Shown piece after piece: positions 2,907-30,996 of a stretch of 44,355 bases of DNA. Where the stretch lies: the IMG/VR virus record IMGVR_UViG_3300021403_000023, positions 1-44,355 of that record; one strand, written 5' to 3'. This DNA is from a virus. The notes beneath the pieces are model-generated. The model searched no databases, had not been told where the DNA came from, and worked only from the letters and a program-made list of their open reading frames with translations. The translations under genes were made by a program, and so were the position numbers. Numbering within the stretch: the first letter of the stretch is position 1; the number at the start of each line of letters is the position of its first letter.

Positions 2907-3937
2907 ACGCCTTAACCCAAGTCAAGGCCGGCGAGATTATTGAGGCAGTAATAGCCCGCGGCGACATCGCCAATCTGACGGCCGAGGAACGCGCTAGATA
3001 TTATACGAAGGTCTGCGAGTCGGTCGGGCTTAATCCGATGACGCGGCCTTTCGAGTACATCACCCTCAACAGCAAGCTTACGCTCTATGCCCGCAAGGAT
3101 GCCACCGACCAACTGCGGCAAATCCATAAGGTGTCGGTTATCGACCTGACCGAGAGCGAGCGCGAAGGCGTCTTTGTCGTGACTGCCAAAGTGCAGAATG
3201 GAGAGGGTCGAACCGACATCGCAAAAGGCGCGGTCAACATCAACGGCCTCAAGGGCGAGGCGCTCGCGAATGCCCTGATGAAGGCTGAAACGAAAGCCAA
3301 GCGCCGCGCGACGCTATCGATATGCGGCCTGGGCTTCCTGGATGAGACTGAGATCGAGGACATTCCCGCAGCAGCCAAGGCAGAGCCCAAGCGCTCGACC
3401 AGCGTGCGCGAGATGATGCGCGATGACATCAAGGAAATGGGCGGCCTGTCAGAGCAGGAGATGCGCGAGCTTTATATGTCGCTCCTGGGCGAGCTCAAGG
3501 AAGCGGCGCCCGATGAACTTGAGCAATGGGCGGCCACCAATGCCGAGCGCATCCGCAAGCTCCCCATGGGCTGGCAGGGCACGCTCAAGCGCAATATCGA
3601 AAAGCGCCGGCCTACGGTCGTCATCGAGCCGCCGCACGACATGGAAACCGGCGAGATAATCAACGATACAGTTCGGGTCGTATGGGAAGAGAACGGCGAG
3701 CGCCCGGCGACCGTGGATGACTTTGGCATCCCGGAAGCACTCAAGCGGTTTACAGCCACCGAAGAGGCTACATGGTTCGAGTTCGTTCAGTCAGCCGTTG
3801 CTTCGACTAAAGACCGAACCTCGCTAGTCAATCTGCGGGTGTCGGCCCTCAATCCTGAAGTGCGCCGCAAGGTGTCAACAAAGGTATGGGGAAATGCGAA
3901 TGCCGCCTTTGAGCAAAGGCTGCAGGCGCTCTCATGA
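2903..3937 (+). CDS. putative single-strand annealing recombinase-like protein
   Basis: 344 aa, starting at the ATG at 2903 after a GGAG site and overlapping the previous stop. The N-terminal 165 residues carry the pattern YYTKVCESVGLNPMTRPFEY, then LNSKLTLYARKDATDQL, and later ALMKAETKAKRRATLSICGL. This layout (substrate loop, basic strand, KAxTKAKRR helix) resembles RecT/Erf/Rad52-type phage annealing proteins. The C-terminal half is charged and helical, with a VIEPPHDMETGEII linker, and looks like an added partner-binding region. Its position ahead of an HNH nuclease in the early operon fits a recombination or replication role. I am fairly sure of the family resemblance but not of the exact superfamily. 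Confidence 0.6.
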   Translation: MNALTQVKAGEIIEAVIARGDIANLTAEERARYYTKVCESVGLNPMTRPFEYITLNSKLTLYARKDATDQLRQIHKVSVIDLTESEREGVFVVTAKVQNGEGRTDIAKGAVNINGLKGEALANALMKAETKAKRRATLSICGLGFLDETEIEDIPAAAKAEPKRSTSVREMMRDDIKEMGGLSEQEMRELYMSLLGELKEAAPDELEQWAATNAERIRKLPMGWQGTLKRNIEKRRPTVVIEPPHDMETGEIINDTVRVVWEENGERPATVDDFGIPEALKRFTATEEATWFEFVQSAVASTKDRTSLVNLRVSALNPEVRRKVSTKVWGNANAAFEQRLQALS

Positions 3938-6852: not shown

Positions 6853-7220
6853 CCGATCTTTTAACCATGGATGATGTGGCCAGCCGGCTTCACAAGAGCC
6901 GCCGATGGTTGCAAGCTTGGCTTCGTGACCGGCCGATCGGGAGGCTGGCCGGGCGCACCCGCCTATTCACGCCCATGGATTTGGCCCAGATCATCCAGGA
7001 GCTGCCATGCCCCTTAAGCTCGTCGCGCCGCGCGAAGGCAAGAGCCCGAACTGGACGATCCGCGGCACCTACCTCGGGCGGTACGTTAACCGAAGCTCTG
7101 GCGCTGGCAAGCGAGCGGTCGCCGTCCAAGTCCTCAAGCAGATCGAGCGAGAGATCGAGCGTGGTGAGTTTTCCGAACCGGGCGAGCCGACCTTCGCGAG
7201 CGCAGCCGCGGCCTACATGA
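6849..7220 (+). CDS. excisionase-like HTH protein overlapping the integrase
   Basis: The ATG at 6849 overlaps the previous stop. The first 55 residues are a MerR/Xis-type winged helix: MTDLLTMDDVASRLHKSRRW, then LQAWLRDRPIGRL and a wing RTRLFTPMDLAQIIQEL. That is enough for a full excisionase. The remaining 70 residues are Ser/Arg/Ala-rich low-complexity and coincide out of frame with the start of the integrase gene, so they may be a passive consequence of the overlap. Position directly before the integrase supports an excision role (Xis). It could instead be an AlpA-like regulator. HTH confident, role inferred. Confidence 0.7.
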   Translation: MTDLLTMDDVASRLHKSRRWLQAWLRDRPIGRLAGRTRLFTPMDLAQIIQELPCPLSSSRRAKARARTGRSAAPTSGGTLTEALALASERSPSKSSSRSSERSSVVSFPNRASRPSRAQPRPT

Positions 7221-7993
7221 GGGCCGGCGGCGAGCGCACGTACCTCAAGAAACTATTGGTGCATTTCGGTGAAACGCCACTCAGCAAGATTGATCAGAGT
7301 GCAATCGATTCAGCAGCAGCTTGCCTCTATCCGAGTGCGACTCCTGCCACTCGCAATCGGTCTGTCTATACCCCCATTTGCGCAGTCCTGCGTGGCGCGG
7401 GCATTAGACTCGATCTCCGTCGCCCTAGAGGAGCTGCGGGTAACAAGGCGACTTCTTGGCTATGGCCAGAACAAGCCGAGGCGATCTTCGCGGAAGCGGG
7501 AAAGCTCGACAAGGAGTTCGCCGTCCTCCTGATCGTGCTCTGCTATACGGGCATGAGGCTATCGGAAGCACTCGGACTGACCTGGAACGATGTGAGGTTG
7601 CAAGATGGATTCGCCTACGTACCTGAGACGAAAAACGAGGAGCCTCGCGCTGTGTTTCTTCCGCCAGTGGCCGTGGCTGCGATGGGAAATATCTCGAACG
7701 ATAGAAGCGGGCGAATTTTCCCATTCGCTAAAGGGGGCCATATTTATTCACTTCTCCGTGCTGCGGCGTTCAAAGCAGGTGTCGATCTGCCCGAGCGCAG
7801 TGCCTTCCACATCTTCCGACACACCTACGCCACCTGGATGCGCCGATACGCCGGCCTCGATGAAAAGGGCCTGATGGCAACGGGCGCTTGGAAGGATCGA
7901 AAGTCTGTGGACCGCTACACGCACACGGTCGTTTCGGAAGAGGCGCGGAAGGCCGCGCTGCTGCCGACCCCGCGTGGAAAATCGGTGGCATAG
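7007..7993 (+). CDS. int: tyrosine recombinase (phage integrase)
   Basis: 328 aa. All catalytic positions of the family can be placed: R184 (TGMRLSEAL), K209 in the beta-hairpin (PETKNEE), H268 and R271 (AFHIFRHTYATWM), W295 replacing the second histidine (TGAWKD), and nucleophile Y304 (VDRYTH). The N-terminus (PNWTIRGTYLGRYVNRSSGA) is an arm-binding-like beta region, followed by a SAM-like core-binding domain (about residues 60-140). It lies immediately upstream of a tRNA-derived attP, the usual layout. It catalyses site-specific integration and excision at a tRNA-Thr gene. The start at 7007 (MPLKLVAPREGK) overlaps the upstream HTH gene by 214 bases. Confidence 0.95.
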   Translation: MPLKLVAPREGKSPNWTIRGTYLGRYVNRSSGAGKRAVAVQVLKQIEREIERGEFSEPGEPTFASAAAAYMRAGGERTYLKKLLVHFGETPLSKIDQSAIDSAAACLYPSATPATRNRSVYTPICAVLRGAGIRLDLRRPRGAAGNKATSWLWPEQAEAIFAEAGKLDKEFAVLLIVLCYTGMRLSEALGLTWNDVRLQDGFAYVPETKNEEPRAVFLPPVAVAAMGNISNDRSGRIFPFAKGGHIYSLLRAAAFKAGVDLPERSAFHIFRHTYATWMRRYAGLDEKGLMATGAWKDRKSVDRYTHTVVSEEARKAALLPTPRGKSVA

Positions 7994-8597: not shown

Positions 8598-8633
8598 GCG
8601 CCTATCGGTCGGGTGCGGCGAATAGGAAGATCA

Positions 8634-9071
8634 ATGCGCGGGTATGCTGCGATAGGCTTAATCGGCCCGAAGATCGAGGCCAACGTCGGCGGCGCGCTTC
8701 GAGCGGTAGCCTGCTATGGGGCGTCCTTAATCGTTCTGGAAGCCCCTCGCTTTGAGCACCGCTCGACCAATGTCACTAAGACGCAGCGGCACATCCCGAT
8801 GATCGTGGGCGCTATCTGCGAGCACCGCCCCTACGATTGCCCTTTGGTCGTAGTGGAGATTGTCGATGGCGCCAGACCTCTTCCCGGATTCATCCACCCT
8901 GAGCGAGCAATCTACGTGTTCGGCCCGGAAGACGGATCGGTGCCTCGCCGCATATTGCAGCGGGCGCAGCACGTCGTTTCCATCCCGACGCGCTACTGCA
9001 TGAACCTCGCCGCAACAGTCAACGTGGTTCTGTACGACCGACTGTCGAAGCAATCGGCAGCATTTCAGTAG
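8634..9071 (+). CDS. SpoU/TrmH-family RNA 2'-O-methyltransferase
   Basis: 145 aa, about the size of a bare SPOUT catalytic core. Motif 1 is NVGGALRAVACYG (N17, R23), motif 2 IYVFGPEDGSVP (about residues 94-104), motif 3 SIPTRYCMNLAATVNVVLYD (about 117-136), together forming the AdoMet-binding trefoil knot. Family members methylate a ribose 2'-OH in tRNA or rRNA. There is no added RNA-binding domain, as in the TrmL-like short forms. I start at the ATG at 8634, after a GCGGCGAATAGGAAG signal, rather than 8613. It lies beyond attP in the region that would follow host tRNA-Thr in a lysogen. Substrate unknown. Confidence 0.85.
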   Translation: MRGYAAIGLIGPKIEANVGGALRAVACYGASLIVLEAPRFEHRSTNVTKTQRHIPMIVGAICEHRPYDCPLVVVEIVDGARPLPGFIHPERAIYVFGPEDGSVPRRILQRAQHVVSIPTRYCMNLAATVNVVLYDRLSKQSAAFQ

Positions 9072-11304: not shown

Positions 11305-11595
11305 CTAAGCTGCATCCTTCCGCAGAAGCTCTTTCAAGTCCTTCTGTAGCTCATCGAATCGTCTACCCTGCGCCATCATGCGCTCGTCCATGACGTTCAT
11401 GCGCCCGCTATGATCGGCCAAGGTAATCAGCACCTTCTGCAGTTCCTTGATCTCGTTCGTCTGGCCGGTCATGACATCCTGCATGGCGGTCACCTGGGTC
11501 TTGAGGACTTTGGTATCAGCTTTGATAGCCCATACGAAGCCAATGAAACTGATCAGGGTCACCCCGATGGTGATCCAGTGTCCCATATCTAACAT
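11305..11595 (-). CDS. single-pass membrane protein with coiled coil (spanin- or holin-like)
   Basis: 96 aa; start at 11595 or the in-frame ATG at 11586. The hydrophobic helix WITIGVTLISFIGFVWAI (about residues 7-24) is followed by a continuous charged coiled coil with regular heptads (LKTQVTAMQDVMTGQTNEIK; MMAQGRRFDELQKDLKELLR). It is the last gene of the lysis cassette. This shape fits an inner-membrane spanin subunit or a holin-associated antiholin. No partner lipoprotein with a lipobox is visible; the barrel-bearing gene just upstream could be the outer-membrane counterpart, which is speculation. Confidence 0.75.
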   Translation of the reverse strand: MLDMGHWITIGVTLISFIGFVWAIKADTKVLKTQVTAMQDVMTGQTNEIKELQKVLITLADHSGRMNVMDERMMAQGRRFDELQKDLKELLRKDAA

Positions 11596-11621: not shown

Positions 11622-12494
11622 TCAAAAGCCAAAGTGCCGGTTGATGCTCAGGCGGAACTCGTTGTCACCGGTCTGTGCGGTCGGAATGCCGGCCACGTTG
11701 CCCGATGTGCCGCCCTGGTTATAGCTGTAGTGCAGGATGTCGGCATTGAGCGTGACGTTTGTCGCCAGCAATGCCTCGACACCAGCGCCAGAGACAAGCG
11801 CCGGCTGGCTATGCCGCCATTCCTCGCCCACCACGATATAGGGGGTCATCAGCGATGCAAGGAACTGCTGCGGCAGGGTCGGCGCAGCACTGCCGGTCGT
11901 GGCAGCACCGAACGCAGAGGCCAGCGAATACCCGAGCCGCGCCTTGACGCCGTAGGTCAGCCGGTCGCGGAAGTTGGTCGGCACGCCTACCGTGGTCTGC
12001 GCATTGAGCGACATATCGGTGTCGAGGTCGGCAAGGATGGCCGCGTACCATTGGCCGTTCCAGAACTCATAGCCGACCTGGCCGCCGATCCCGAGGCCGT
12101 TCTGCGCCAGTCCGGTAAGGCCGGTGCCGACGATATCGAAGTTGCCGCCCGCGTTCGCGATGTTCGCACCGACGAAGAAGCCGGTGCAGCTCGTGACGGT
12201 GCAGGGCGTGGACCGCGTATAGACCGGCGCCTTGACCGCCATGGGCGACACATCAGCCGCCGAGCTCGGGGAGGCTAATCCAAGTAGGATCGCCACCAGA
12301 AACATGCCACCGACCACCTTTGCGGTCTCGGGCACTTTCTTCATGTCCCAATGATTGTATACGGCAAACACGATGCCGACCAATCCGCTCAAGAATGCCG
12401 TCATGTCACCGGCAGAGAAACCATACTTGGCCACGACCGGCGCGAGCATAGCGACAGTCGGGCCGACAAGATTCATCATTTCGTCCTTGTTCAT
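11622..12494 (-). CDS. holin-like membrane segments fused to an outer-membrane beta-barrel
   Basis: 290 aa from the ATG at 12494, which has an AAGGGA site. Residues 8-26 and 31-49 are two hydrophobic helices of the kind found in small phage holins, followed by NHWDMKKVPE. Residues 59-80 form a signal-peptide-like segment ending SPSSAA-D81. The rest is an Omp25/31-type barrel: GFFVGANIANAGGNFDIV, then GGQVGYEFWNGQWYAAILAD, ending in the C-terminal phenylalanine of outer-membrane barrels. An internal ATG at 12344 would give MKKVPETAKVVGG plus the signal peptide and barrel, so one message could make both a fusion and a separately exported barrel. It lies within the lysis cassette. A role in outer-membrane disruption or in masking the receptor is inference. 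Confidence 0.8.
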   Translation of the reverse strand: MNKDEMMNLVGPTVAMLAPVVAKYGFSAGDMTAFLSGLVGIVFAVYNHWDMKKVPETAKVVGGMFLVAILLGLASPSSAADVSPMAVKAPVYTRSTPCTVTSCTGFFVGANIANAGGNFDIVGTGLTGLAQNGLGIGGQVGYEFWNGQWYAAILADLDTDMSLNAQTTVGVPTNFRDRLTYGVKARLGYSLASAFGAATTGSAAPTLPQQFLASLMTPYIVVGEEWRHSQPALVSGAGVEALLATNVTLNADILHYSYNQGGTSGNVAGIPTAQTGDNEFRLSINRHFGF

Positions 12495-12513: not shown

Positions 12514-12747
12514 TCAGCCGCCAACGCCAAGGTCGCAGCCGAAGTGCCAAAAAAAATGAACCATCAAGCCGCCGAAGAACATTCCCCAAAGGCCGATGCT
12601 CAGCGGCCATTTGGCCCCGGCCGTTGCAATCGTGCGCGATAGTGTCCACTGCCGATCTGGGTGCTTGAGCGCGTAGGTTTCAATCAGTGTGAAGCTACCG
12701 ATTGCGAGCGGAAACCAAACTGCAAGCCACATCCAGGTCAGACTCAT
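12514..12747 (-). CDS. two-helix small membrane protein, candidate holin
   Basis: 77 aa; the ATG at 12747 overlaps the endolysin stop, so the longer frame to 12930 is not used. There are two hydrophobic stretches: WMWLAVWFPLAIGSFTLIET (about residues 5-24) and WPLSIGLWGMFFGGLMVHFF (about 50-69). A basic connector (ALKHPDRQWTLSRTIATA) lies between. Size, topology and coupling to the muramidase gene suit a class II holin. The neighbouring gene at 12494 also carries holin-like helices, so one of the two may be an antiholin. Confidence 0.75.
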   Translation of the reverse strand: MSLTWMWLAVWFPLAIGSFTLIETYALKHPDRQWTLSRTIATAGAKWPLSIGLWGMFFGGLMVHFFWHFGCDLGVGG

Positions 12748-13295
12748 GACGGCACCGCCATCTTGAGTGCTGCAGCCTGAATACGTGCGCTTCTCGCCAG
12801 CCAGTCGCGACCGAAGTATTTGAAGCCATTCAGGCCGCGGTAGACTTCCTCGCGCCGGTTCGTGAATGCGCGGATGACCAGCGGCACGCCGCGGATGGCC
12901 GCTACGGCGGCGGTGGTCGCCGGTCCCCAATCGCCATCGTTCTGTAAGCTAAGGGCGACCTGCAGGATGCGGACTGCCTCAGTTGCGCCTTCGTTCACCG
13001 AAGCATCGAAAAAGCACAGGTCAAGCCCGGTCGGCAGTCTTGGACAGTGAGGCAGCCAATAGTTCGTCTCGTAAATCTCGTGGCCTTCGTCCTGCGTGAG
13101 CTGGCGCACGTCGCGCACCGGATCGCCACAGTAGCGGCGATAGGCGTCATACTCGCGCTGAATGATGCCGCACATGGTCTCCCCGCCAGGGTCGTGCGCG
13201 TCATTGGAAAAGTTCTTCGGATTGCTCCAGTCAGTCGGGCAAGGGCATTCCTCGGCCAGCGTGAACGGCAAGCAGATGTCAAAGCGGTCGGTCAT
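12744..13295 (-). CDS. endolysin, GH108 N-acetylmuramidase
   Basis: 183 aa; the ATG at 13295 overlaps the previous stop. The ZliS/GH108 signature appears as FSNDAHDPGGETMCGIIQRE, with E15 or E16 before it the likely catalytic acid. The second half (DLCFFDASVNEGATEAVRIL, then NDGDWGPATTAAVAA) is the peptidoglycan-binding domain always paired with GH108. It cleaves the glycan backbone of peptidoglycan at host lysis. No signal peptide, so it depends on a holin, and two candidates follow in the operon. C8 and C17 are extra cysteines near the active site. Confidence 0.9.
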   Translation of the reverse strand: MTDRFDICLPFTLAEECPCPTDWSNPKNFSNDAHDPGGETMCGIIQREYDAYRRYCGDPVRDVRQLTQDEGHEIYETNYWLPHCPRLPTGLDLCFFDASVNEGATEAVRILQVALSLQNDGDWGPATTAAVAAIRGVPLVIRAFTNRREEVYRGLNGFKYFGRDWLARSARIQAAALKMAVPS

Positions 13296-13660
13296 GCGCC
13301 CACCTTTGGAATGAGGCAGTAGATGCGGCCACCAGAGCCGATGAACAGGATGTATTTGTCGAGCGGGTTGCCGTACTTGGCCTGCAGCTTGGAGCGCGGC
13401 ACGTCGATTTCTGTGCCGTTCGGAATGATGTCCTTGCCATCGATAATCTTGGTGGCAATCGAGCCATCGGGATTGTCGCCAGTCAGTTCAACCTCAAATG
13501 CGTCGGCCTCGCCGCAGCATGACTGATATGGATTCTCCGGCTGCATGACGGATTGGAACCATTGCCGGATTTCCGCAGGTTCATCCGCCCATTGCGGGCT
13601 GGGGCGCGCAAGCGCCGCCGTGGCGGCAAGCGCCGCTAAAGCGCAAATTATTGATTTCAT
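13292..13660 (-). CDS. secreted small protein with CCGEADAFEVE motif
   Basis: 122 aa. The first 19 residues (MKSIICALAALAATAALARP) are a clear Sec signal peptide. The mature part opens with QWADEPAEIRQWFQSVMQPE and a double cysteine, SCCGEADAFEVE. It continues with a beta-rich domain (GTEIDVPRSKLQAKYGNPLD, then KYILFIGSGGRIYCLIP). Similar secreted proteins occur in Rhizobiales genomes and their phages; function unknown. Placed between the tail fibre and endolysin, it would act in the periplasm, perhaps with the lysis proteins. The start overlaps the fibre gene's stop (TGATG). Confidence 0.75.
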   Translation of the reverse strand: MKSIICALAALAATAALARPSPQWADEPAEIRQWFQSVMQPENPYQSCCGEADAFEVELTGDNPDGSIATKIIDGKDIIPNGTEIDVPRSKLQAKYGNPLDKYILFIGSGGRIYCLIPKVGA

Positions 13661-23885: not shown

Positions 23886-24275
23886 TCAGGCTGTAATCCA
23901 TTGTTTGACCGTTGCGCGGCTATCGCCTGACAAGGCCTTGTAGCCCCGGCCCCATTTCGTGGTTATCTCCAACCCATGAGCTGACAACTTGCGCCGCAGA
24001 TGGCAGACAACCACTTTGACTGACGTGCCGATGTAATCGCCCTTGCATCGGGCGGCGATATTATCCTCGGAAAGCGTGGCGCCTTCCTGAGCATTGTAGA
24101 GCGCCAACAAGACATCGGCTTCCATTGGCGACAGGTTGACGGGCGCATTGAGGTCAATGCCGGGGCGCAATTGGCCTTCCAGCCACTTCACACGCTCACG
24201 AAGCTCATCGTTAAGTCTCCTGAGCTTCGTTATTTCGTCCTTATAGGTGGGATGCACAACGTAGGTGTAGCTCAT
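23886..24275 (-). CDS. OmpR-type winged-helix protein without receiver domain
   Basis: 129 aa; the ATG at 24275 overlaps the stop of the upstream glycosyltransferase gene. The longer frame to 24452 is not used. An N-terminal coiled coil (DEITKLRRLNDELRERVKWL EGQL) leads to a trans_reg_C winged helix: NLSPMEADVLLALYNAQEGA TLSEDNIA, then TSVKVVVCHLRRKLSAHGLE and the wing ITTKWGRGYKAL. It should bind DNA as a dimer. There is no phosphoacceptor domain. Standing inside the structural operon, coupled to the GT-FkbM gene, it may tune that cistron or a host gene. DNA binding confident, target unknown. Confidence 0.8.
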   Translation of the reverse strand: MSYTYVVHPTYKDEITKLRRLNDELRERVKWLEGQLRPGIDLNAPVNLSPMEADVLLALYNAQEGATLSEDNIAARCKGDYIGTSVKVVVCHLRRKLSAHGLEITTKWGRGYKALSGDSRATVKQWITA

Positions 24276-26461
24276 GCCTGCTGCTCCATCCGGCCGTTGG
24301 CCTTCAGGGATGGAATACCTGATACAGACATGCCCTCGTTGAGAGCATCGACAAGCTTCCGTTCGAGCTTCGTCGTCGGCTTGAACTCGGGATTGACAAC
24401 CGTCTTGTAGCCGTGGACCGGGCGCATATCGGTGCGCGCATCTTCCGGCCAAAGCTCATTGACCGCTGCCTCCGTCGAGAACAACAAATTGATAATGAAG
24501 TTGTTCGGTGCTTTTATTTTCTCGTGTTCCTGCAGCATGTGCGGCTTGGAGCCATCCGCGAAAAGCTGGAACACGTGATATCCATACTGCGCCATCCAGA
24601 CGCGGAATGTCTTTTCCGTGCATCCTAGCTGCTTCAAGCCGAACTCGTGGAACTCGGTAATGATGAAGTCCGGCCGATGCTTGGCGAGCAGCTTTTTCGC
24701 CCCTTCCAAAATACGCTGCTCTGCGCCTTCGGTATCTATCTTGATAAGGCGCGGTTGCAGCTTTCTTTCCTTCACGACCTCCCAATCAAGGGTAGTCGCC
24801 AGCAATGTCCGCTTTTGAGGATCGGCCCGCGTTTTCTCATTGGTGGGATATTTGCCCGGATCCCAGGTCGCATTCCCACCAGAGCCATCGGCGCAGAGAT
24901 AGAAATCAATCGAGCCGGTCTTGGACCATAGAGGTTCGTCTATAATCTCGATTGTCGATATGCCCTCGCAGGACTTGCGCAGTTCCGGCAACGCATTCTC
25001 ACCAGGCTCGAAGGCCAACACCTTTCCGGTATCGCCCACGAGTTCGGCCGCTAGGAGCGTATGCATGCCGATATTGGCGCCCACATCAACGAACGTATCG
25101 CCGGGCCGTAAAATCTTGCGAATAGCGTGCGCTACGTCCGGTTCCTTGTGGTCGGCCAAGGTTGGGTTGGCAACCGTGGGAGACTTCAGCAGCCGCGCAA
25201 CCGCAATCTGGTCGTGCATGTGGTTTACGGCAGCCATTACCCGCTTCATAACGCTCGACCAGTCGCCTACCTTGGTCTGACGGAACAGGCGCGTCTTGGG
25301 GTACCATGGCGTGTCGTCTCGCCCATGCAGCCAGCGCCAATCCGCAAACAGCGGAAGCATGATGAACGTCGGGATGCCCAGCGCGCTGGACAGGTGCGGG
25401 ATGGCCGTACAGGATGAAATCACGAGGTCGAGGTTTTTGATAAGGGCGGCCGTATGCGTCCATTCCCCCTCGATGTCGGGGGACATATCCTTGACGATAC
25501 GCTGTGCCCTGGCCTTCGCTATGTCAGCTGAGGCCGGCCCGACCTGGATGCTGTAGACCGTATTGCGAGGGTCGGAGGCGAGCGGCAGGAACTCACGGAA
25601 CGGAATGGACCGGAGCTTATCGCCAGGGAACTGCTTGTTGCCCTGCCACGCAATGCCGATACGCAGGCCTTCGCCCGGCAACCGGCCTTCGCTATTGGCG
25701 ACCGATAGCAAGCCTGGATCGGGCGGGATTGTCTGTGGCGTCACACCGAAGACCAGAGGCAGGCTTGCAAGGCAAATCTGATGGTCATATTTGGTGTCCG
25801 CACCATAGACCGTGGCGACCTCGCAAATCTGGCTGAAACCCTGGAACAGCAAGAGGAGCTGAGGCGTTACAAAGAATGTCACCTTGTCGGCGCGCTCGAC
25901 TGCCATTTTGACGAAACGCGAGAACATGATGACATCGCCATGTCCCTGGTCGGGCCAGATGGCTAGATGCCCGGTCTTTTCGCCCTTCCACGTCGGCGCA
26001 TTAGGCGGCTCGCCGGTCTTCGGAAGGATTTGCGCGCGATGCTCATAGAACGGAAGTCCGTTGGCAAAGTCGCCTGCCCGAAGATAAGCCGCGGCAAGAT
26101 CAAAGCGACGTTGTCCATCCGTGGGTTGGAGATCATATGCCTTCTTGAAGCATGAGATGGCCTCGTCCATCTTGCCTTGGTTGGTCTTGACGACACCAAG
26201 CAACTGCCATGCGCCAGGAGACCTCTCATTTTCCTTCACAACGGCTGCGCAGATCGACTCGATTTCGTCGTACTCGCCGGCCTCGACCAAGATTGTCGCC
26301 AGATTGAGCGCGCAACCATGGTCCTTCGGATTGAGAGCAACTGCCCGGCGCAACATGGCAATGCCGGCATGGAGCGCATCGCCACTTAAGCTCGCCGCAT
26401 CAATACCAACATTGTTGAGAGTAGCCGCCCTGGCTATGTCGAGGTCACTAATCTGCTTCAT
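24272..26461 (-). CDS. TPR - glycosyltransferase - FkbM methyltransferase fusion
   Basis: 729 aa from the ATG at 26461, which has an AGGGA site; the frame to 26503 would start inside the terminator. Residues about 25-150 are tetratricopeptide repeats (AIAMLRRAVALNPKDHGCAL style). Residues about 170-420 match the bacterial TPR-linked GT41/GT9-like transferase: PDQGHGDVIMFSRF, then GIAWQGNKQFPGDKLRSIPF, NLDLVISSCTAIPHLSSALG, DWRWLHGRDDTPWYPKTRLF. Residues about 450-620 are an FkbM methyltransferase (FVDVGANIGMHTLLAAEL; LIKIDTEGAEQRILEGAKKL). It probably adds and methylates a sugar on protein or surface glycan. It lies behind the capsid terminator and is coupled to the winged-helix gene. Domain calls confident, acceptor unknown. 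Confidence 0.88.
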   Translation of the reverse strand: MKQISDLDIARAATLNNVGIDAASLSGDALHAGIAMLRRAVALNPKDHGCALNLATILVEAGEYDEIESICAAVVKENERSPGAWQLLGVVKTNQGKMDEAISCFKKAYDLQPTDGQRRFDLAAAYLRAGDFANGLPFYEHRAQILPKTGEPPNAPTWKGEKTGHLAIWPDQGHGDVIMFSRFVKMAVERADKVTFFVTPQLLLLFQGFSQICEVATVYGADTKYDHQICLASLPLVFGVTPQTIPPDPGLLSVANSEGRLPGEGLRIGIAWQGNKQFPGDKLRSIPFREFLPLASDPRNTVYSIQVGPASADIAKARAQRIVKDMSPDIEGEWTHTAALIKNLDLVISSCTAIPHLSSALGIPTFIMLPLFADWRWLHGRDDTPWYPKTRLFRQTKVGDWSSVMKRVMAAVNHMHDQIAVARLLKSPTVANPTLADHKEPDVAHAIRKILRPGDTFVDVGANIGMHTLLAAELVGDTGKVLAFEPGENALPELRKSCEGISTIEIIDEPLWSKTGSIDFYLCADGSGGNATWDPGKYPTNEKTRADPQKRTLLATTLDWEVVKERKLQPRLIKIDTEGAEQRILEGAKKLLAKHRPDFIITEFHEFGLKQLGCTEKTFRVWMAQYGYHVFQLFADGSKPHMLQEHEKIKAPNNFIINLLFSTEAAVNELWPEDARTDMRPVHGYKTVVNPEFKPTTKLERKLVDALNEGMSVSGIPSLKANGRMEQQA

Positions 26462-26487
26462 ACGAATCCCTATCGTTGAAGTTTGAA

Positions 26488-26493
26488 TGTCAA
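26488..26493 (-). promoter_or_regulatory. possible -35 (TTGACA) for the GT-FkbM gene
   Basis: On the minus strand, TTGACA lies between the terminator and the ATG at 26461. No good -10 follows at 16-18 bases. If it is a promoter, the glycosyltransferase gene is expressed separately from the capsid operon. Confidence 0.3.
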
Positions 26494-26504
26494 ATGCTGG
26501 CATG

Positions 26505-29983: not shown

Positions 29984-30245
29984 TGAGTTTGCCCATCATG
30001 TCGATTTCGCGCTGAGCCAAGCGGCCATCAGCGACGACTTTCTTAAGCTGTGTCTGAACGTTCCTCAGATTGGCCTGCGAGCGCCACAGTTCATCCCGCA
30101 AAGCCTGGTCTTCGCAGTCCTTCCAGGTATCGACATAGACCTTCTCCAGATAGGCGAATGTCTCCTGCAGCAGCTCATTATGGAGAAGCGCCTGCGCCTG
30201 GGCTTGTTTTCCTATGGCGCGGCTTAGCTTGTATTCATCGGACAT
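29973..30245 (-). CDS. small helical protein of the head module
   Basis: 90 aa. Continuous charged helix: MSDEYKLSRAIGKQAQAQAL LHNELLQETFAYLEKVYVDT, then WKDCEDQALRDELWRSQANL RNVQTQLKKVVADGR and REIDMMGKLNAA. I recognise this type from alphaproteobacterial phages, between the tail-fibre or portal genes and scaffold. Helical hairpin likely; an assembly or packaging accessory role is possible. The preceding gene in this direction is separated by the plus-strand methyltransferase. Confidence 0.7.
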   Translation of the reverse strand: MSDEYKLSRAIGKQAQAQALLHNELLQETFAYLEKVYVDTWKDCEDQALRDELWRSQANLRNVQTQLKKVVADGRLAQREIDMMGKLNAA

Positions 30246-30282
30246 CGTGGCTTATTCTTCCTATCCCCTTCCGAAGAGGCAA

Positions 30283-30996
30283 ATGATGACGAACTTTTTC
30301 AGTTTGCACGGCCGCACCACGGCGCAAAGCACCTATGCCGGAATCGATGAAAATGCACTGCCTGGTCAGCACGCCATGATGTTCGAACTGCTCTCATCTC
30401 TAGTCCCTCCCGGCGCACGGGTGCTCGACCTGGCCTCCGGGATGGGAGCTTGGCCGCAACGCTTGTCCGACAATGGCTATGATGTGACTGGATGCGACAT
30501 TCAGCCAAATCTATGTCGTGTTCGCTGTGAGAAGGCAGACCTTAATGAAGCCTTCTCTAATAGATTTGGTGGGCAACAATTCGACGCCATTACAGCAATC
30601 GAAATGTTGGAGCACATCGAGAATCCACGCCACATTTTTCGCGAAAGCAATCGACTGCTAAAGCCTGGGGGCACGCTACTGCTGTCCACACCGAACGCTT
30701 CCGGCTTTCACTCCCGCATCAAGTTTCTAGCGACCGGCAGGTTTTCAATGTTTGATGATGTCCAATATCATGGCATTGGACACATCAGGCCAATCACCTA
30801 TTGGGAGCTTGAGAAGATGCTGATAGAGGCATGTTTTAGCGTCCAACAAGTGAGGTTTCACGACAACTACGACCTCGTGCCTCACAGCGTCGGGGAAATT
30901 GTGAAGCTTCTTTCGTCTGTCCTAAAGCCGCTCCTTCAGGGAGTTGCTGGCGGACAGGTCATTATAGTCTCGGCTACAAAGGCGCGCGACATCTAG
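30283..30996 (+). CDS. class I SAM-dependent methyltransferase on the opposite strand
   Basis: 237 aa from the ATGATG at 30283, after a GAAGAGG site; a longer frame from 30214 lacks one. Motif I is VLDLASGMGAWPQRL (about residues 47-61), motif II VTGCDIQ, then AITAIEMLEHIENPRHIFRE and LLKPGGTLLLSTPNASGFHS, the arrangement of the UbiG/methyltransferase-11 group. Members methylate small molecules or sugars. It runs against the late operon, meeting the glycosidase-like tail gene tail to tail with a 4-base overlap. It is A/T-richer than the neighbours, pointing to recent acquisition. Probably a moron altering lipopolysaccharide or capsule glycan; substrate unknown. Confidence 0.85.
   Translation: MMTNFFSLHGRTTAQSTYAGIDENALPGQHAMMFELLSSLVPPGARVLDLASGMGAWPQRLSDNGYDVTGCDIQPNLCRVRCEKADLNEAFSNRFGGQQFDAITAIEMLEHIENPRHIFRESNRLLKPGGTLLLSTPNASGFHSRIKFLATGRFSMFDDVQYHGIGHIRPITYWELEKMLIEACFSVQQVRFHDNYDLVPHSVGEIVKLLSSVLKPLLQGVAGGQVIIVSATKARDI

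Follow-up and report, generated by a model that had tools for sequence, protein, structure and literature searches.

A gene of a phage lysis cassette that joins a predicted holin to an outer-membrane barrel through an internal signal peptide

Main finding

The window analysed here, the whole 44,355 nt of the IMG/VR record IMGVR_UViG_3300021403_000023, contains within its lysis cassette a gene of 290 codons that combines a holin-like two-helix hairpin, an internal signal peptide and an outer-membrane β-barrel of the Omp25/31 type. This architecture, which an earlier note on the same DNA had proposed, is confirmed and well supported. The fusion is recurrent, is assembled from known parts and is apparently undescribed as far as we found, since a search of the open-access literature returned no description of a holin-barrel fusion or of a comparable phage polyprotein. 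The reading that we prefer is that the gene encodes a polyprotein which would be cut by the host signal peptidase I and whose barrel would act at the outer membrane in lysis; the chance that this reading is right in all its parts we put a little short of even.

The window phage and its lysis cassette

The fusion gene is located at the end of the late operon, and the cassette comprises, in this order, a GH108 endolysin, a 77-aa protein with two transmembrane (TM) segments, the fusion protein and a 96-aa coiled-coil protein with one TM segment (Table 1). The muramidase and the two-helix protein that had been noticed beside the gene before are therefore both confirmed. The start of the 77-aa gene overlaps the end of the endolysin gene as ATGA, and its product is a candidate for a second holin or an antiholin. 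The fusion ORF itself starts at an ATG that is preceded by its own Shine-Dalgarno sequence AAAAGGG, and it runs to its end without an internal stop.

Outside of these four genes, the phage has a terminase similar to those of Microcystis, Methylophilales, Rhodoferax and Pelagibacter phages, and its capsid and portal are of the SU10 type. Since a tyrosine integrase is also present (7007-7993), the phage is probably temperate. Some further genes deserve mention. There are two different muramidases approximately 1.3 kb apart, as a phage lysozyme (PF00959, 14607-15293) occurs besides the GH108 enzyme. Positions 13292-13660 encode a 122-aa exported protein with paired Cys, which shows 34% identity to one upstream of the lysis genes of contig L007. 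The structural gene operon includes a 743-aa TPR and FkbM methyltransferase protein (24272-26503) as well as a lone methyltransferase gene on the opposite strand (30214-30996), and a gene with a SpoU-type methylase domain is located at 8613-9071.

Table 1 Features of the fusion gene and its neighbours in the window
Feature	Position	Strand	Basis or remark
Fusion ORF, 290 aa: holin-like hairpin, internal signal peptide and outer-membrane barrel	11622..12494	-	ATG 12494
Residues 1-58, holin-like two-helix hairpin	12321..12494	-	59% identical to separate 74-aa L007 gene
HWDMKKVPE, holin-family motif, predicted cytoplasmic basic loop	12327..12353	-	family alignment
ATG of M51, internal start of the earlier note, judged unlikely	12342..12344	-	+0.5 kcal/mol
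AAAGGTGG, Shine-Dalgarno-like, 8 nt before ATG 12305	12314..12321	-	-8.9 kcal/mol
Residues 59-80, internal signal peptide ending SPSSAA/D	12255..12320	-	hydropathy 2.19
ATG of M64, possible second start for the barrel alone	12303..12305	-	roughly matches L007 barrel start
Residues 81-290, outer-membrane beta-barrel, about 8 strands, C-terminal Phe	11625..12254	-	PF13505; AF2; relatives in 9 contigs
CTVTSC, Cys98 and Cys103	12186..12203	-	alignment of 10 phage barrels; Shinella sequence
GH108 muramidase (endolysin)	12744..13295	-	PF05838 E=5e-17; phrog_315 endolysin 6e-30
77-aa two-TM protein	12514..12747	-	homologues in L001/L003 and L010; hydropathy
96-aa one-TM coiled-coil protein	11305..11595	-	weak Rz-like PHROG hits; basic residues after TM, not before

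The two halves of the fusion protein

Residues 1-58 are predicted to be a holin, which is class-II-like. Hydropathy indicates hydrophobic segments at residues 6-22 and 29-45, and a structure model of low confidence has helices at residues 3-24 and 28-50. MKKVP is invariant in all ten aligned members of the holin family, and the DNA pattern for H...[ND]MKKVP retrieved short phage membrane proteins of the form M-N-x-D-E...HW[ND]MKKVPE from many contigs. Three of the ten family members match Phage_holin_10 of Pfam (best 3.8e-6), and relatives of the window hairpin match PHROG holins (phrog_881, 9e-4). The separate profile searches that the earlier note had recommended for both halves gave a mixed outcome. 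For the hairpin of the window the best PHROG holin match is weak (phrog_33625, E 0.025), so that the designation as a holin rests on the relatives and on the position, which is that of a small TM protein beside an endolysin gene, with GH108 two genes upstream in the same cassette. The 77-aa protein, which has a GGLxVHFxWH-like motif, is kept beside such holins in L001, L010, L014, L025 and L026.

For the barrel the PF13505 (OMP_b-brl) match has an E-value of 2e-5, but with 25.3 bits it stays below the curated cut-off of 28.7 bits; the homologous barrel from contig L021 lies above it (41.8 bits). Eight strands are present in both structure models, which are of low confidence (pLDDT 60 and 51), and together with the signal peptide and the C-terminal aromatic residue (Phe290) they give the layout of Omp25/31 proteins. 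A fold search of the PDB yielded no significant matches, which is what one would anticipate with a model of such low confidence.

Barrel relatives are encoded by nine other phage contigs, and in all ten phage barrels a Cys98/Cys103 pair precedes the first strand. The single cellular relative that we found, on a chromosome-size replicon of Shinella, is 28% identical and lacks this pair. Because the pair is invariant in the phages and absent from the Shinella protein, the barrel seems to form a separate phage lineage, with one cellular sequence compared. A recent origin from a host gene was considered and set aside, as there is no close plasmid relative and the distant Shinella match was the single hit. 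Phage isolate records were also searched, and none encodes a relative of either half.

Recurrence and spread of the fusion

In contig L007, the closest relative, hairpin and barrel (the latter 66% identical to that of the window) are encoded by separate adjacent genes. The barrel gene has its own signal peptide, directly follows the hairpin gene and is itself followed by a coiled-coil gene, as in the window. Therefore the window gene has arisen by the joining of two adjacent genes of the cassette, and its internal signal peptide occupies the place of the N-terminal one in the separate barrel gene of L007. The earlier note had also considered that relatives might lack the helices and that the barrel might be a plain host-derived gene. 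It is true that the parts are separate in L007 and L025, but the helices are present and the barrel appears to belong to the phage lineage described above.

The fusion plan is not a chance occurrence, since it recurs. Four other phage contigs join a holin or holin-like protein in frame to a signal peptide and an exported domain. The 309-aa ORF of L021 consists of an unrelated two-TM N-terminus, a signal peptide and a homologous barrel (42%). It is preceded by the gene of an enzyme with homologues in L007 and L018 and followed by a coiled-coil gene. To judge from the sequences, this fusion arose independently of the one in the window. In L005, L009 and L010 the MKKVPE holin type is joined to a signal peptide and a secreted domain of another kind; the L009 domain occurs as an independent gene in L014 (45%), and the domain of L005 and L010 does so in L017 (E=1e-5). 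Three types of exported protein are thus present in both the fused and the free state, which implies no fewer than three fusion events: two or more joined the barrel to a holin or holin-like protein, and the third fusion lineage comprises the other secreted domains. At least two further families of secreted Cys-containing phage proteins follow the MKKVPE holin or are fused to it; such proteins are found at L005:4390-5268, L009:2161-3048, L010:13116-14021, L017:6143-6556 and L001:5229-5752 and in L014.

Unfused barrel genes show a similar neighbourhood. In L024 (with an ATGA overlap), L025 and L027 the barrel comes directly after a candidate holin, and in L018 one is encoded nearby. The window, L018, L025 and L027 have a recognised endolysin upstream of the barrel, and L007 and L021 encode a related enzyme. 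The SU10-type capsid family, whose model is matched by the window's own protein, was detected in none of 18 related records, and only three of the 18 have a terminase match to the window, which is remote. This mismatch indicates that the module moves among otherwise unrelated phages.

Junction, cleavage site and start codons

The internal signal peptide consists of K59, a hydrophobic core and the sequence S-P-S-S-A-A/D, a good predicted signal-peptidase I site (the slash marks the cut). An in-frame internal signal peptide with an AXA-type site after membrane helices is common to the window and the four other fusions, and the sites of these four are canonical (PAMA/A, ASA/Q, AFA/A and AFA/A). 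Since none of these four fusions has a convincing internal start either, the predicted cleavage of a single precursor would explain all five. Alternatively, the chain might remain uncut and bridge the inner membrane and the barrel in the manner of a spanin, although in inverted order. Such a tether would make sense of an inner-membrane domain at one end of the chain and an outer-membrane domain at the other, and partial cleavage would be compatible with the data. However, canonical cleavage sites are found in five of five fusions, the signal peptides of the unfused versions are predicted to be cleavable, and the approximately 25-30 residues from the membrane helix to the first strand are too short for an intact periplasm. 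We therefore regard an uncleaved tether as highly improbable.

The earlier note had assumed that the barrel alone is made from an internal ATG at 12344. This could not be upheld, since the codon has no Shine-Dalgarno sequence, scores weaker than a typical random ATG and encodes the first residue of an MKK that belongs to the invariant MKKVP motif. ATG 12305 is the better candidate for nested starts, by which full-length holin-barrel and barrel alone would be produced from the same gene. Its upstream AAAGGTGG places it among about the best 3% of ATGs, an identical AAAGGTGG precedes the GH108 start, and M64 is roughly at the start of the separate L007 barrel. On the other hand, a signal peptide beginning at M64 would have no basic n-region, whereas K or R is present within the first four residues in eight of eight unfused barrels. 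Moreover, the other fusions have no comparable starts, and a site this good would arise by chance on one of two ATGs with a probability of about 6%. Nested starts thus seem unlikely to us, if by no means far-fetched. They can coexist with cleavage of the precursor, and initiation at ATG 12305 could be an added route to the barrel in the window.

A frameshift error near 12340 that separates two ordinary genes, which the earlier note had itself brought up, is disfavoured by the recurrence of the fusion and by the coding signal. In every 24-codon interval that spans the junction, the codon score of frame 0 is above those of both other frames, so that an indel could lie only in the stretch of about 15-20 nt that separates VPETA from the signal peptide. 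The basic n-region of the signal peptide is gone, as expected of one that relies on K52, K53 and K59 instead, and the same kind of fusion exists in four other contigs. An assembly or sequencing error that joined two overlapping genes would agree with the two genes of L007 and with the window being a single virus record, and after a shift by one base near 12310 the holin frame would reach a stop within about 10-20 codons. Nevertheless, we consider such an error very unlikely.

The sequence AKVVG, which precedes the hydrophobic core in the window and in L005, L009 and L010, was at first read as a sign of a common fusion. We dropped this idea, because ETAKVVG of the window fits an ordinary holin tail ETAxVV as well.

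Spanins and the outer-membrane step

In about 13% of the tailed phages of Gram-negative hosts no spanin can be identified, and how these phages break the outer membrane is an open question (PMC12819732). The absence of a spanin lipoprotein from the window, as had been noted before, was corroborated by a lipobox scan of the entire 44 kb, which revealed no credible lipoprotein while it recovered lambda Rz1, Bor and T7 18.7 as positive controls. The same scan found no credible lipoprotein in the contigs G001, G003, G006 and G009, which may be incomplete, and in G005 it found one possible 60-aa lipoprotein elsewhere in the contig. The coiled-coil neighbour, which the earlier note had also mentioned, does not have the topology of an inner-membrane spanin. 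Despite its weak Rz-like hits, it was rejected as an i-spanin, since its basic residues follow the TM segment, which is the wrong charge pattern according to the positive-inside rule, in the window as well as in most relatives. Consequently, the window has neither the lipobox lipoprotein nor the N-in/C-out partner of a two-component spanin. The fusion protein does not resemble a unimolecular spanin, as it lacks a lipobox and has N-terminal TM segments and a C-terminal barrel, and its exported half of 210 residues is not the short cationic amphipathic peptide of a disruptin.

In L013 a lipoprotein (1189-1602) fills the slot directly after an MKKVPE-type holin. Two lipoproteins (2454-2891 and 2974-3177) are located shortly downstream of such a holin in L012, and the one of 67 aa combines a lipobox with a C-terminal TM segment, which is the layout of a unimolecular spanin. 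Related barrels are also encoded at L023:4980-5639, where the gene follows that of a DNA polymerase, and at L028:4905-5582. Because no recognisable lysis gene lies beside them, the link between barrel and lysis is not a strict one.

This leads to the question whether the fusion might be as described and the barrel nevertheless work outside lysis. As a Lom-like or exclusion-type outer-membrane protein it would block the receptor, limit the re-adsorption of progeny to debris or alter the cell surface. The barrels of L023 and L028 and a phage-borne barrel matched in BFVD (A0A6J5LBY6, E 5e-4) demonstrate that such proteins exist outside lysis cassettes, the integrase makes conversion possible, and lambda Lom is a barrel of this kind that is dispensable for plaques (PMC10695390). 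However, in most carriers the barrel lies in or beside the lysis cassette, it was twice fused to a holin or holin-like protein, and lipoproteins as well as other secreted proteins occur in its slot. Moreover, a gene that is expressed late, with the lysis operon, is poorly suited to exclusion. A Lom-like role is therefore possible, but we rather doubt it; if the fusion is taken as real, a role in lysis has somewhat better than even prospects against it.

Proposed mechanism

According to the polyprotein reading, a single precursor would be made from the fused class-II-like holin and the exported Omp25/31-type barrel. With regard to the topology that we infer from the charges, the first two helices would enter the membrane as a hairpin whose ends are both cytoplasmic, and the basic loop MKKVPETAK (KK...K) would be kept inside. 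The third hydrophobic stretch would act as the internal signal peptide and pass the remainder through Sec. A cut by the host signal peptidase I after SSAA80 would then free the barrel, which could be inserted into the outer membrane with the assistance of Bam, and the part that stays behind in the inner membrane would be a holin with three helices. The sequence speaks well for this predicted route of export. At the outer membrane, as the genomic context suggests, the barrel would most likely act in that step of lysis which concerns this membrane, and take the position of the outer-membrane lipoprotein of other phages. Since they derive from one precursor, holin and barrel would be made 1:1 and timed together in the late operon.

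If this is true, agents for the inner and the outer membrane would be supplied in a fixed ratio and released together, and a polyprotein of a tailed phage would be split by a host signal peptidase. In several unrelated phages in which no spanin lipoprotein was detected, the third position of the lysis cassette is taken by this barrel lineage. One could go further and assume a class of lysis modules in which the outer-membrane step is performed by a β-barrel instead of a spanin or disruptin and in which this barrel is delivered as a holin-barrel polyprotein split by signal peptidase. We put this forward as a tentative generalization that may well not hold.

Comparison with known systems

The hairpin has its counterparts in the holins of the Pam3 gp28 family (Phage_holin_10; PHROG 881 and 33625), which likewise have two helices and fewer than 80 aa and are encoded beside the endolysin. 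Their models match the relatives of the window protein, and the window protein itself weakly. In contrast to these holins, that of the window runs on into the signal peptide and the barrel, by which it would gain a third helix. The exported half shares with the Omp25/31-type barrels of PF13505 the signal peptide, the approximately eight strands, a first strand of the GFYVG type and the C-terminal aromatic residue, but the phage lineage differs by its invariant N-terminal Cys pair.

Like the spanins Rz/Rz1 of lambda and gp11 of T1, the barrel is a third, envelope-facing component of a lysis cassette and occupies a similar place. However, a barrel is found in the window instead of a lipoprotein, and there is neither a lipobox nor an i-spanin-like protein of the right topology. 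The disruptins of phiKT are outer-membrane lysis agents that are not spanins, which is the role proposed here for the barrel, although they are short amphipathic peptides and the exported half in the window is a barrel. Lambda Lom and other phage barrels are phage-encoded outer-membrane barrels too. Lom is a separate gene near the tail genes, whereas the barrel of the window is fused to a holin within the lysis cassette.

The splitting of polyproteins by host signal peptidase is familiar from eukaryotic viruses, and to our knowledge from no described phage lysis system. In bacteria, the FbcH precursor of the cytochrome b-c1 complex from Bradyrhizobium is a polyprotein with an internal signal peptide behind membrane helices, at which it is cut. 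FbcH is a respiratory enzyme and not viral, whereas the arrangement in the window is part of a phage lysis cassette.
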